From Thermogemmatispora sp. (GTDB lineage: Bacteria; Chloroflexota; Ktedonobacteria; Ktedonobacterales; Ktedonobacteraceae), in assembly GCF_019683635.1 (NCBI RefSeq), contig NZ_JADGIA010000018.1, positions 1 through 39,729 on the forward strand: a stretch of 39,729 nucleotides of DNA, read 5' to 3'. A program made the translations under genes and the position numbers. Below the pieces are notes generated by a model, which was given only the letters and a program-made list of their open reading frames with translations, did no database searches and was not told where the DNA came from. Position 1 is the stretch's first letter. Each line of letters starts with the position of its first letter. Positions 2,819 to 6,875 of this stretch are shown here, piece after piece.

Positions 2819-5800
2819 TTAGCATTCGCTGTGGCCGCAGCTATAGCACTTGCGACAGCCTTCTTCGTAGACCATCGTGTTGCAGCCGCATTGCGGGCAA
2901 AGGTTACCGGTGACATTGAGGTAACCGATATGCAAGGCTTCGCCAGCACTGTTGCTCTGGCCTTCGTTCTCTGGCTGATGATGGAGCGAGGCCGGAGTGT
3001 TCGAGCCGTTTTCGAGCATCTCTAGATGCAGCTCCAGCGCCCGGGCCACGGCGTCCGGCAGCGAGCGAATCTGCTGCGGACCGAAACCAACAGAGCGGCT
3101 GCCGGCAATGCCACGCAGCTGCTCGGCCACTTCACGCATGCGATCCACCTGCGAGAGCGGGCTGGGAATGCGCAGGATGAGCGAGATGAGTCGCCCCAGG
3201 GCTTCCGCCAGAGCCAGGATGTCGCTGCCGGCTTTGCCGACGTTGACGAAGACTTCCAGCGGGCCGTGCTCATCGCTGTTGATGGTGACGTTGACTTTGC
3301 CCTCGGGAGCGCGAATCTTGCGGGTGTAGCCATGCAGGACCTCGGGCGGGGGCTTGATCATCGGTCCGAGGCTCGCCCCTTGCTCAGACCTGCTCTCGCT
3401 CTGAGGCGGCTGTGCCTGCTGTTGTTGTTCCGCCTTCTTGTCTTCGATATGGGAGAGTACTCCAACTCGTGATCCGTCGCGCATATAGGTAATGCCTTTA
3501 CAGCCAAGCTCATAGGCCAGCGTGTAGAGCTTTTTGACGTCTTCGACCGTGTGGCTGTTGGGAGCGTTGACGGTCTTGCTGATGCTGGCGTCGGTATACT
3601 TCTGAATGGTGGCCTGGACACGCACATGCTGCTCTGGCGTGAGGTCGTTGGCAGCGACGAAGTAATCAGGGGTCGGTTCGCCCGGATGTTCATCACGCCA
3701 GGCTTTGAAGAGCGGATGGTAAAGTACATGCTCGCCTGTGCGATCGCGGCGCACCATAGCGAAGTCGTAGACCGGCTCAATGCCGGAGCTGACGCCGGCA
3801 AAGAGGCTGGTGGTGCCCGTCGGCGCCTGGGTCAGCAGAACGGCGTTACGGATGCCTTGCTTGCGAATCTTCTCCTGGATGGCTCTGGGCAGACGCTGGA
3901 TGAAACGCCCCTGCATGTATTTCTCGCGGTCGAAGCGCGGGAATGGCCCTTTTTCTGCAGCGATGTCCGCCGAGGCATCGTAGGCCGCGTCACGAATGGT
4001 GCGATAGATGCGCTCTATGACTGGGATGGAGCGGTCGCTGCCGTAGGGGACCTTCATCTTGATGAGGGCGTCGGCCAGGCCCATCGTGCCCAGGCCGGTG
4101 CGTCGCGTAGCCATTTGCGCCTGACGGTTCTCTTCGATAAAGTACTCGTTGGCGTCGATGACGTTGTCCAGGAAGCGCATGGCAACACGAGCAGTCTCGG
4201 CAAGCTGCTGATAGTCCATCTCGCCGTCTTTGACAAAGGCTGCCAGGTTGAGCGCCCCCAGGTTGCAGACGCCCCAGGGCGGTAAGGGCTGCTCTCCGCA
4301 GTTGTGCACAACGAGACCATTGGCGATGAAGAGGTGCCTCTGCGGTTCAACAAGGTCGTAAACCAGCTCTTCACCGTCGGGTTCCAGGCTCTCGAAGGTC
4401 GCCAGATAGTCGGCTGCTTCCTCGGCCTCGGAGAGCATGCTCTGGGAGGCCACGGCGCTCAAGAGGCGCTGACGACTGGCAGGCCGGAGGCCAATCTGGT
4501 CGCTGAAGCGCCGCAGATGGCTGCCGCTGATGCGGAGTTCGTCGCCCGCCTCCCCTGGCTGGCTCAGCGGCTGAGGCTGAATCGCGGAGAGAATGGCGAA
4601 GTTCAGGAGAAGACGCTGAACATCTTCGAGCAACGTGCGCGGGCATCCGCAGAGGCGCAGCGTGTAGCCGTTCTGGCTGTCGCAGCTGAGGCTTCCAGCC
4701 AGAGAGAAGAGCATCGCCAGGAAACCCTGCTGCATGGCGCGATTGCCACGCAGGATGGCGGCGGGCAGGCGCTGGCCTAGTGTTGATTCTTCGACGGCGC
4801 TGAGCGCCTGGGCCTGAGCCAGGGCGTCGCTGGTGAGCGTCGGGGCGGGGGCTGGTAGACCGTTAGCAGTGACGCTCAGCCAGGCCAGGGCCTGGCCCAC
4901 TTCGGCATTGCCTTCTGTCCCAAAGGCACCACCCTGCCGCAGCAGATAAAGCTGCTCGCCCGGACGGAGGTCAGCGGCAGCTTTCCAGCCGCTCGTGGTA
5001 AGGACCCGGTGATCAGCGGTGAGGCGCAGGCTGTAGCCTTCGCGCGTGCGCAGCCGGTAGACGGGCTTGATCCCCGTGGGGAAGACGGGGCTGGCCAGGC
5101 GAAGCCGACTGCTACGTCCTGACGCTCTCTGCTTGCCTCCACTGGCACGGGGAGCGCTACCGACAAGCGCCTCCGCTGGCAGGTCCACATCTTCTGAGAC
5201 GATCTGTACGGGCAGCCCGCTCTGGGCCAGCTCGCGTGCCGGAATGAGGCCCGCACTGGTGTAGATGAGCGTCTCACCGGTGACACAGGGGTTGACGCAG
5301 TTGATTTTTTCGTAGTACCAGGTATTGGCTTCTTTGTTGCAGCGGTCCATGAAGACGACGCCTGGCTCGGCGGACTCCCAGGCCGATTTGCAAATCAGGT
5401 CCCAGAGGTCGCGCGCGCGGACCGTCTTCTTGACTTCGCCCTGCCAGATCAGGTTCCACGGCTCGTCGTTCTTGACAGCCTGCATGAAGCGATCAGAGAT
5501 GCAGACCGAGAGGTTGGCGTGCTCGATCTTGCCTTCGGTGCGCTTGACAGTGATGAACTCTTCGACGTCAGGATGGGTGTCGTCCAGCATGAGCATGAGG
5601 GCGCCGCGCCGTGAGCCTCCTTGCTGGATGACATCGCCCGTGGCCACCGAGTAGAGCTGCGCCCAGGAGCAAGGGCCAGAGGCCGTGCCGTTGACGGTCT
5701 TGATGTAGGAGCCACGGGGCCGCAGGGTCGAGAGGTTGATGCCCACACCACCGCCACGGGCCATGATCTCGGTCATGATCTTGAGGTTGTCAAGGATACC

Positions 5801-6151
5801 CTGGCGGCTGTCTTCAGGGCTGGGAATGACGTAGCAGTTGTAAAAGGTCACCTGATGGCCAGAGCCAGCCCCGGCCAGAATACGCCCACCCGGTACAAAT
5901 TTGAAGTCGTCCATCGCCTCATAAAAGCGCTTCTCCCAGTAGGCACGCAGCTCCTCCGTCTTCTCCACCGCCGCGATTCCCCGCGCCACACGCGCCCACA
6001 GCTCTTCGGGATAGTGCTCCAGAGGCTGGCCACTGGCATCCTTGAGCGAATAGCGATCCAGAAAGACTTTGAGACGAATACCTTCTAGCTGTGTCCGCTT
6101 CGCTATATCACCAGGCGCTTTGGGAGTCTTCGACTCCTGCTGCTCTAACAT
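2819..6151 (-). CDS. nrdJ: Vitamin B12-dependent (class II) ribonucleotide reductase with an in-frame intein
   Basis: Reduces ribonucleotides to deoxyribonucleotides using adenosylcobalamin to make the thiyl radical. The precursor is 1110 residues; removing the 329-residue intein (residues 289-617) leaves about 781. Seen in order: the PGGRILAGAG motif (87-96); Cys106 in FYNCYVIP, one of the two reducing cysteines; NP then Cys618-GEQ, the radical cysteine, directly after the intein; Cys629 in GVCNLGALNL, the partner cysteine; APTGTTSLFAGVSSG; a TSCPD-like region; and a C-terminal zinc-ribbon-like set of cysteines (CPQCGC, CRKCYSCGHSEC) typical of long NrdJ proteins. A GAGGAG ribosome site lies upstream of the ATG. 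I found no cobalamin riboswitch upstream. The gene ends at the shared terminator. Firm call. Activity depends on splicing, because the intein interrupts the catalytic motif. Confidence 0.97.
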   Translation of the reverse strand: MLEQQESKTPKAPGDIAKRTQLEGIRLKVFLDRYSLKDASGQPLEHYPEELWARVARGIAAVEKTEELRAYWEKRFYEAMDDFKFVPGGRILAGAGSGHQVTFYNCYVIPSPEDSRQGILDNLKIMTEIMARGGGVGINLSTLRPRGSYIKTVNGTASGPCSWAQLYSVATGDVIQQGGSRRGALMLMLDDTHPDVEEFITVKRTEGKIEHANLSVCISDRFMQAVKNDEPWNLIWQGEVKKTVRARDLWDLICKSAWESAEPGVVFMDRCNKEANTWYYEKINCVNPCVTGETLIYTSAGLIPARELAQSGLPVQIVSEDVDLPAEALVGSAPRASGGKQRASGRSSRLRLASPVFPTGIKPVYRLRTREGYSLRLTADHRVLTTSGWKAAADLRPGEQLYLLRQGGAFGTEGNAEVGQALAWLSVTANGLPAPAPTLTSDALAQAQALSAVEESTLGQRLPAAILRGNRAMQQGFLAMLFSLAGSLSCDSQNGYTLRLCGCPRTLLEDVQRLLLNFAILSAIQPQPLSQPGEAGDELRISGSHLRRFSDQIGLRPASRQRLLSAVASQSMLSEAEEAADYLATFESLEPDGEELVYDLVEPQRHLFIANGLVVHNCGEQPLPPWGVCNLGALNLAAFVKDGEMDYQQLAETARVAMRFLDNVIDANEYFIEENRQAQMATRRTGLGTMGLADALIKMKVPYGSDRSIPVIERIYRTIRDAAYDASADIAAEKGPFPRFDREKYMQGRFIQRLPRAIQEKIRKQGIRNAVLLTQAPTGTTSLFAGVSSGIEPVYDFAMVRRDRTGEHVLYHPLFKAWRDEHPGEPTPDYFVAANDLTPEQHVRVQATIQKYTDASISKTVNAPNSHTVEDVKKLYTLAYELGCKGITYMRDGSRVGVLSHIEDKKAEQQQQAQPPQSESRSEQGASLGPMIKPPPEVLHGYTRKIRAPEGKVNVTINSDEHGPLEVFVNVGKAGSDILALAEALGRLISLILRIPSPLSQVDRMREVAEQLRGIAGSRSVGFGPQQIRSLPDAVARALELHLEMLENGSNTPASLHHQPENEGQSNSAGEALHIGYLNVTGNLCPQCGCNTMVYEEGCRKCYSCGHSEC
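4301..5287 (-). other. Intein inserted at the radical cysteine of nrdJ, endonuclease degenerate
   Basis: Precursor residues 289-617 form a self-splicing protein insert. It starts with Cys1 in CVTGETLIY (block A), has a TADH block B (Thr and His) in RLTADHRVLT, a block F in VYDLVEPQRHLFIANG, and ends in His-Asn just before Cys+1 of CGEQPL. All splicing residues are present, so it should splice. The middle resembles a LAGLIDADG homing endonuclease. The first motif reads LAWLSVTANGL, with Asn430 where the catalytic Asp is expected. The second reads FLAMLFSLAGSL (477-488), with Ser483 and Ala485 in place of the two Asp of the usual LFDADG. A downstream DELRISGSHLRRF segment still matches this domain. 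The endonuclease is therefore predicted inactive. Boundaries are exact from the flanking NP/CGE motif. Confidence 0.93.
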
Positions 6152-6299
6152 GCTGCCTTACTCCTCTCTTAAATTACAGCTCGTCAGTCGCCGCCCGCCT
6201 ACCACACACTACTACACCATGCGCTCGATGCGCCGCGTCTCCCGGTGCCGGACGCACGACAAAGAAAGGGCAGGTAAGAAATAGGACTCACCAAATCAT
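6152..6299. other. nrdJ leader and promoter region
   Basis: This segment between nrdJ and the palindrome-bounded element must hold the 5' leader of nrdJ, and perhaps its promoter unless transcription begins beyond the element. I see no good -35/-10 pair and no B12-box sequence. The last bases before 6300 (about 6284-6299) would be the guide if the neighbouring element encodes an omega RNA with a 5' guide. Confidence 0.4.
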
Positions 6300-6715
6300 G
6301 CGGCGCCGGAAGCCCCGGCGTTCACGCCTGGGGAGGAGGCGCCGCACCCTCCTTTCGTCTCCCCGGAAGGCCCGGCTGCCTCCTCTTGCCCAGCGCGCAA
6401 ACCATGATCCTTTCCTCCCTTACGGGACCCCTTACGGGGCTGGTGACGGGTCCGGGCGGACTCTCCCGGACCGCTCCCCTCGCCCATGTTGCCAGCCGGC
6501 CTCTGCCCCGACCCGTTTCGCCCACACCCCGAAGGTTGTCTGCAGCCGGGACTTCCAGGGTCCGGAACTGGGGAAGCATCCCGGAGTGGGTCGTTGACCT
6601 GCCGGCAACGGAGCGGCGTCCTCGCCTTGTCCTTCGGCTCAACCGCTTGGGCTGGTCAGAGACGGGCTTGTAAGATTCCCTGCAAGCCCCCGGCTTGAGC
6701 CGTGGGGTCTCTGAC
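6300..6715 (+). mobile_element. Candidate ORF-less IS200/IS605-type miniature element (IscB/HEARO-like)
   Basis: Two subterminal hairpins of the same unusual geometry and the same orientation bound this segment. Left: CCCC-GGCG-TTCA-CGCC-T-GGGG at 6313-6333. Right: CCCC-CGGC-TTGA-GCCG-T-GGGG at 6687-6707. Each has a 4-bp outer stem, a 4-bp inner stem, a 4-base loop and one bulged T on the 3' arm. Non-inverted imperfect palindromes with a bulged T are the ends recognised by TnpA of IS200/IS605 elements. The left hairpin sits inside an 8-bp stem (6300-6307 with 6338-6345). No transposase, TnpB or IscB frame lies between them. The interior has omega-RNA-like sequence (next entry). Exact cleavage points are not known. 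It could instead be a lineage-specific repeat; other copies in the genome would settle this. Confidence 0.55.
6300..6715 (+). ncRNA. Possible omega RNA (HEARO-like) encoded by the element
   Basis: The segment is full of perfect stems: 6300-6307/6338-6345, GGTCCGGG 6449-6456 with CCCGGACC 6465-6472, GTCAGAGAC 6655-6663 with GTCTCTGAC 6707-6715, and GGGCTTG 6664-6670 with CAAGCCC 6683-6689. CGGCTCAA (6635-6642) could pair with TTGAGCCG (6695-6702), which would compete with the right-end hairpin. The core around 6547-6590 contains GGGACTTCC followed by GTCCGGAACTG. From memory this resembles the GGGATTTCC...GGAACTG core of the OgeuIscB omega RNA. If so, the guide would lie 5' of the first stem, about 6284-6299. 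Related RNAs are known from Ktedonobacter, including copies without an adjacent protein gene. Moderate confidence; a covariance-model search would decide. Confidence 0.45.
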
Positions 6716-6859
6716 TTCTAGAGAACTTGTCCTGCAGGCAAGTTATCGGCTATGATTTCCCCGGTCGACCTTCCTCGGGACAGTATACTAGGAAACCTCC
6801 CCGATTACAAGCCTTTGTCCACAAGATATTGAGATTTTCCCATCTCCAGACACAACATA
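6716..6859. other. Spacer between the element and the cinA promoter
   Basis: No gene is seen. It holds a short ACTTG/CAAGT hairpin around 6725-6743, then a more AT-rich stretch that includes the first copy of the ATATTGAGA repeat. Confidence 0.45.
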
Positions 6860-6875
6860 TTGAGAGATATTGAGA
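6826..6875 (+). repeat. Three direct ATATTGAGA repeats upstream of cinA
   Basis: Identical 9-mers lie at 6826-6834, 6857-6865 and 6867-6875. The start-to-start spacings are 31 and 10 bases, about three turns and one turn of the helix, so all copies face the same side. The second copy supplies the likely -35 hexamer and the third lies in the spacer of the cinA promoter. This is the arrangement of an operator bound by a dimer or oligomer. Confidence 0.5.

Follow-up and report, generated by a model that had tools for sequence, protein, structure and literature searches.

A mobile omega-RNA element upstream of nrdJ in Thermogemmatispora, derived by deletion from an IscB element

The nrdJ leader and its HEARO match

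The window examined here, the whole 39,729-nucleotide stretch, corresponds to contig C213 in a draft genome of Thermogemmatispora sp. (5.4 Mb, 93% complete). The features of interest lie in and around the nrdJ-cinA intergenic region (Table 1). A 424-bp element is situated in the leader of nrdJ and contains a HEARO scaffold that starts at the border of the element distal to nrdJ. A candidate guide lies in host DNA just outside that border and, farther out, there is a promoter-like site followed by two repeats that we take to resemble NrdR boxes. The nrdJ product (1110 aa) appears to hold an in-frame intein; the reductase matches flank residues ~300 to 615, and this stretch matches intein-containing families and ends in VHNC.

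TABLE 1 Features of the nrdJ leader and the inserted element in the window
Feature	Position	Strand	Basis or remark
nrdJ, next gene downstream, same direction	2819..6151	-	ORF; TIGR02504 NrdJ_Z, 579 bits
TCAC insertion target, putative TAM position (GTGA on the omega-RNA strand)	6288..6291	+	Empty-site alignment
Mobile element, 424 bp, noncoding	6292..6715	.	Absent from the site in five congeners; two further genome copies with the same ends
iscB 3'-end remnant with stop codon, ~70 nt	6296..6365	-	Second block, query 351-428 versus C62:18076-18153
End hairpin CCCC.GGCG.TTCA.CGCC.T.GGGG, bulged T	6313..6333	+	Subterminal, imperfect
iscB start remnant, ~33 nt from ATG	6373..6405	-	C62 alignment; first block ends at query 343
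HEARO/omega-RNA scaffold, 5' end at 6715	6468..6715	-	RF02033, 99.6 bits
Other end hairpin CCCC.CGGC.TTGA.GCCG.T.GGGG, bulged T	6687..6707	+	Subterminal, imperfect
Guide GACAAGTTCTCTAGAA, host DNA outside the element	6716..6731	-	5' of the omega-RNA; equals the empty-site flank
Promoter-like TTGTAA-17-TATACT, context outside the element	6782..6810	-	Consensus scan; conserved in five congeners; putative function
Two NrdR-box-like repeats, 32 nt apart, just beyond the promoter-like site	6818..6865	.	Sequence and conservation

To identify structured RNAs, we compared the whole window with Rfam 15 by cmscan. Two matches passed the gathering threshold: one was a tRNA and the other HEARO (RF02033; gathering score of 83). 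The HEARO match, at 6468 to 6715 on the minus strand, covers the complete model (1 to 211) with 99.6 bits and an E value of 1.8e-19 for the whole window; the plus strand did not match the model. The original prediction, which had named this covariance model as a check, was therefore right about a stand-alone omega-RNA: the match is above the gathering score, the contig lacks iscB, and an intact IscB element is present elsewhere in the genome. It had the strand wrong, however, and the core letters by which it had recognized a real omega-RNA, GGGACTTCC...GTCCGGAACTG, correspond to the HEARO core in reverse complement.

Two structural arguments made at the outset found no support. Long stems had been offered as evidence, but the minimum free energy is not below that of dinucleotide-shuffled sequence on either strand (z = −0.76 for the minus strand and −0.37 for the plus strand), so that folding energy is uninformative here. 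A switching structure had also been suggested. The 8-nt pairing involved, CGGCTCAA/TTGAGCCG, is indeed possible in the window omega-RNA; among 101 omega-RNAs, however, swapped or shuffled controls are almost as complementary in these segments, and only the window copy has the 8-nt pairing. We did not retain the switch, as the alternative pairing is not conserved.

HEARO, the IscB omega-RNA, belongs to the OMEGA systems described previously (PMC9640706, PMC9755519). The window element resembles these in matching the family model over its full length with a score above the cut-off and in having a 5' guide taken from the flank of the element. Unlike them, it has no adjoining iscB, and only the ends of that gene are left. 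Since the RF02033 family is defined by its RNA, the missing gene excludes an autonomous IscB element but not an omega-RNA.

Insertion site and origin by deletion

The nrdJ-cinA intergenic region lacks the element in all five Thermogemmatispora congeners searched (G001 to G005). Their sequence reads AATAGGA(C/T)TCAC followed directly by TTCTAGAGAACTTGTC, which corresponds to both window flanks with one TCAC; G002 and G004 deviate from this joint by one or two bases. Because the flanks are joined with a single TCAC, the mobile part is 6292 to 6715, and the exact empty site in five congeners indicates an IS200/IS605-style insertion 3' of TCAC without target duplication. The limits first proposed, 6284 to 6715, were thus nearly correct, although they took in the TCAC at 6288 to 6291. 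The two further copies of the element in the draft genome, on contigs C76 and C193, have empty sites of the same form: on the omega-RNA strand, GTGA stands between the two flanks, or CTGA in the case of the C76 site in two genomes.

Subterminal imperfect hairpins are present at both ends of the element on the same (plus) strand and follow the pattern CCCC-n4-loop-n4-T-GGGG. Such bulged-T end hairpins are expected of the substrates of IS200/IS605 TnpA. The element therefore shares with IS200/IS605 the insertion 3' of a tetranucleotide, the lack of target duplication, and the imperfect bulged-T hairpins at both ends; unlike these insertion sequences, it contains no tnpA or accessory gene within its 424 bp, and a cognate TnpA was not found in the draft genome. 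The sole tnpA of the draft genome, on C33, lies in a TnpB element without bulged-T end hairpins, and we rejected its product as the mobilizer for that reason. From the empty sites and the further copies, we conclude that the 424-bp feature is almost certainly a mobile stand-alone omega-RNA element. That the whole feature is mobile and sharp-ended is what the original prediction missed.

The draft genome contains four HEAROs above the cut-off, on C193, C213 (the window), C76, and C62. For comparison of the elements, we used a query of 428 positions that includes the TCAC and whose numbering begins at the 5' end of the omega-RNA. The window element aligns with C76 over 428 of 428 positions with one mismatch and is 95% identical to C193. 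The C62 element is an intact IscB element of 1,639 bp and matches the window element in two blocks, query 1 to 343 and 351 to 428. The second of these corresponds to the far end of the C62 element and holds the iscB 3' end and stop codon; the short form is thus the long form minus ~1.2 kb of iscB. The deletion breakpoints are identical in all three short copies in the genome, two of which differ by one base, indicating that the deleted form has moved since the deletion occurred. A fourth short copy is found in Thermogemmatispora tikiterensis, at a site common to C193, and the omega-RNA core also matches NZ_MCIF01000002.1 of that species. A full-length IscB element is present in the congener G005. 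Collectively, these data show that the element is a nonautonomous, internal-deletion derivative of an IscB-bearing IS200/IS605-type element from which nearly all of iscB has been removed.

Palindrome-associated transposable elements (PATEs; PMC3119063) are an example of MITE-like IS200/IS605 derivatives. The window element is similar to MITE-like derivatives of this kind in that it is short, multicopy, and noncoding and carries the ends of an autonomous relative. It differs in holding a complete IscB omega-RNA and in acquiring a new guide with each insertion. T. tikiterensis also contains a different deletion derivative (G001:C2:4633868-4634282; L092, 1069-1483), which keeps the first 105 nt, ~250 nt including the iscB 5' part, and the 3' end, and lacks most of the omega-RNA.

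A profile search of the genome with PF14239 identified IscB on C62 and C299 and fragments on C178, C342, and C348. It found none on C213, where only the start and 3'-end remnants within the element are left, in agreement with the original statement that no IscB gene lies nearby. A search for iscB elsewhere in the genome had also been proposed, and C62 supplies an intact gene: an open iscB lies downstream of its HEARO, and the 439-aa product matches NF040563 (guided_IscB) with 420.6 bits as well as the solved TbaIscB and OgeuIscB chains. The C299 IscB (L015, G000:C299:26500-30639) is divergent, with 44% identity to the C62 IscB, and lies near a contig end. No HEARO above the cut-off was found beside it, and one was possibly lost at the contig break.

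The guide and possible retention in trans

IscB guides are located 5' of the omega-RNA and are ~16 to 17 nt in length (PMC9640706). With the HEARO on the minus strand, the guide is GACAAGTTCTCTAGAA, the complement of 6716 to 6731, and not 6284 to 6299 as first proposed. G001, G003, and G005 have the same 16 letters in their empty-site flank, and G002 and G004 differ by one change each. Being host DNA, the guide necessarily matches the empty site, in which GTGA follows it on the omega-RNA strand. An IscB carrying this guide would thus be expected to cleave a chromosome once the element has left it. The guide had been predicted to direct IscB to a matching site elsewhere. In a search of the genome, however, the only perfect match of the 16-nt guide was its own flank, and the target that it matches is the empty site of the relatives. 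The nearest other match, with a single mismatch, is at C280:15642, and it is followed by ACTA instead of GTGA, so we rejected it as a target; one further match has 2 mismatches. Known IscB TAMs include NTAAA with NWRRN variants for OrufIscB and NWRGNA sites for OgeuIscB (PMC13180657). The putative TAM GTGA agrees in general form with these motifs of other IscBs.

Transcription of the guide must start outside the element, since the element does not include it. The promoter-like site precedes the guide by ~50 bp and is directed through the guide and omega-RNA toward nrdJ; it is conserved in the congeners, and guide and omega-RNA are thus probably transcribed with nrdJ as part of its leader. The C76 and C193 copies likewise have the sense orientation and lie 50 and 65 bp, respectively, upstream of a start codon.

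RNA-guided retention of insertion sequences (peel-and-paste, cut-and-copy) has been proposed for TnpB and IscB. A related cycle may operate on the window element. In this cycle, a TnpA acting in trans would carry out single-strand transposition, and the nrdJ promoter would transcribe the guide and omega-RNA within the nrdJ leader. IscB from a full-length sibling (C62, possibly others) would bind the window omega-RNA and cut chromosomes that had lost the element by excision; the break would be repaired from a sister copy and the element thereby regained, which would amount to retention by cut-and-copy in trans. As in RNA-guided retention, the guide corresponds to the empty donor site, the adjoining motif is the target of the transposase, and the geometry is one that permits recutting. 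The case differs in that nuclease and guide would come from different copies. A trans-acting role of the window omega-RNA is plausible. As the best overall explanation, we favor with moderate confidence a nonautonomous derivative of an IscB element that has kept its omega-RNA and uses a sibling IscB in trans. For trans-guided retention of the element by the sibling IscB in particular, the sequence tips the balance slightly in favor. The leader segment at 6731 to 6754, which immediately precedes the guide, is able to base-pair with its 5' part (AACTTG/CAAGTT, minus strand) and is kept in congeners apart from one base; such pairing might mask this part of the guide and would then count against our reading, as does the failure to find a TnpA with matching ends in the draft genome.

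The main alternative is that the omega-RNA is an inert passenger of a MITE-like deletion derivative that is moved by TnpA in trans, and that it persists solely owing to the terminal hairpin that it contains and to the recent origin of the copies. We consider this possible but not probable. The element does move without iscB, and the window and C76 copies are one base apart, which leaves little time for decay. TnpA would need only the ends, however, whereas the omega-RNA is complete in the mini-elements: the three copies score 99.6, 99.8, and 98.7 bits, at least as high as the full-length C62 element (93.5 bits). A passenger role is also at odds with a compensatory change that distinguishes the first stems of the copies (GTCATAG/CTATGAC in place of GTCAGAG/CTCTGAC; n = 1) and with IscB-less families that, at ~80% likeness between genera, still exceed the HEARO cut-off.

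The element could instead be a domesticated regulator whose insertion in the leader controls nrdJ by folding or through a catalytically inactive IscB, a role that its sense orientation downstream of the promoter-like site and ahead of nrdJ would suit. We regard this as very unlikely, since five congeners lack the insertion and the alternative pairing is not conserved; in addition, near-identical copies precede unrelated genes. The arrangement first envisaged, a plus-strand omega-RNA with its guide at 6284 to 6299 and a target elsewhere, can be set aside, for although the plus strand also folds into many stems, the HEARO match is confined to the minus strand and 6284 to 6299 straddles the opposite end of the element.

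IscB-less omega-RNAs in other Ktedonobacteraceae

HEAROs were present in 33 of the 61 genomes searched, which comprised the genome itself and its relatives. We sampled 100 HEAROs from eight other genomes of the family (G009, G011, G021, G022, and G024 to G027; L127 to L226). IscB sequence lay downstream in 75, and the remaining 25 had no adjacent iscB. Many of the IscB-less HEAROs form multicopy families of ~360 to 440 bp with sharp ends. One family of ~410 bp is common to G011, G024, and G026 (L147, L149, L176 to L181, and L188 to L191), with ~79 to 100% identity; compared with full-length IscB elements, it consists of the 5' block and the 3' end, as does the window element. G025 contains another such family, and G022 and G027 hold a related set. 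IscB-less omega-RNA mini-elements thus recur in other Ktedonobacteraceae. The omega-RNA was oriented with both neighboring genes in 51 cases and against both in 9 (binomial P = 3e-8, based on crude codon-usage gene calls). Such a bias is consistent with dependence on transcription by the host, but it could also result from a preference of TnpA for one replication strand.

Extending the use of a sibling IscB in trans beyond the window, we tentatively propose that the Ktedonobacteraceae mini-transposons are a recurrent class that would exploit sibling TnpA and IscB and borrow host promoters by sense-orientation insertion in gene leaders, each insertion arming the shared nuclease against its own empty site. 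If so, the guide here would be made from the promoter of a ribonucleotide reductase gene. Stand-alone IscB omega-RNAs are already in the literature and have been noted in Ktedonobacter racemifer; we found no description of IscB mini-elements in the titles and abstracts of the literature searched. HEARO omega-RNAs and nonautonomous IS200/IS605 elements are each known already, and the in-trans hypothesis is directly testable. The window element offers a clean natural test case of whether a nuclease-less transposon can rely on the RNA-guided nuclease of a sibling for its own inheritance, as the sequence provides the guide, the exact empty site, the adjacent motif, and a candidate IscB. Recurrence in several genera suggests a repeatable route by which the guide RNA is kept and the nuclease is lost; separation of guide and nuclease genes is also seen in CRISPR systems. 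The ~410-bp family of G011, G024, and G026 ends at its 3' side in TATAAA, which resembles the OrufIscB TAM NTAAA.
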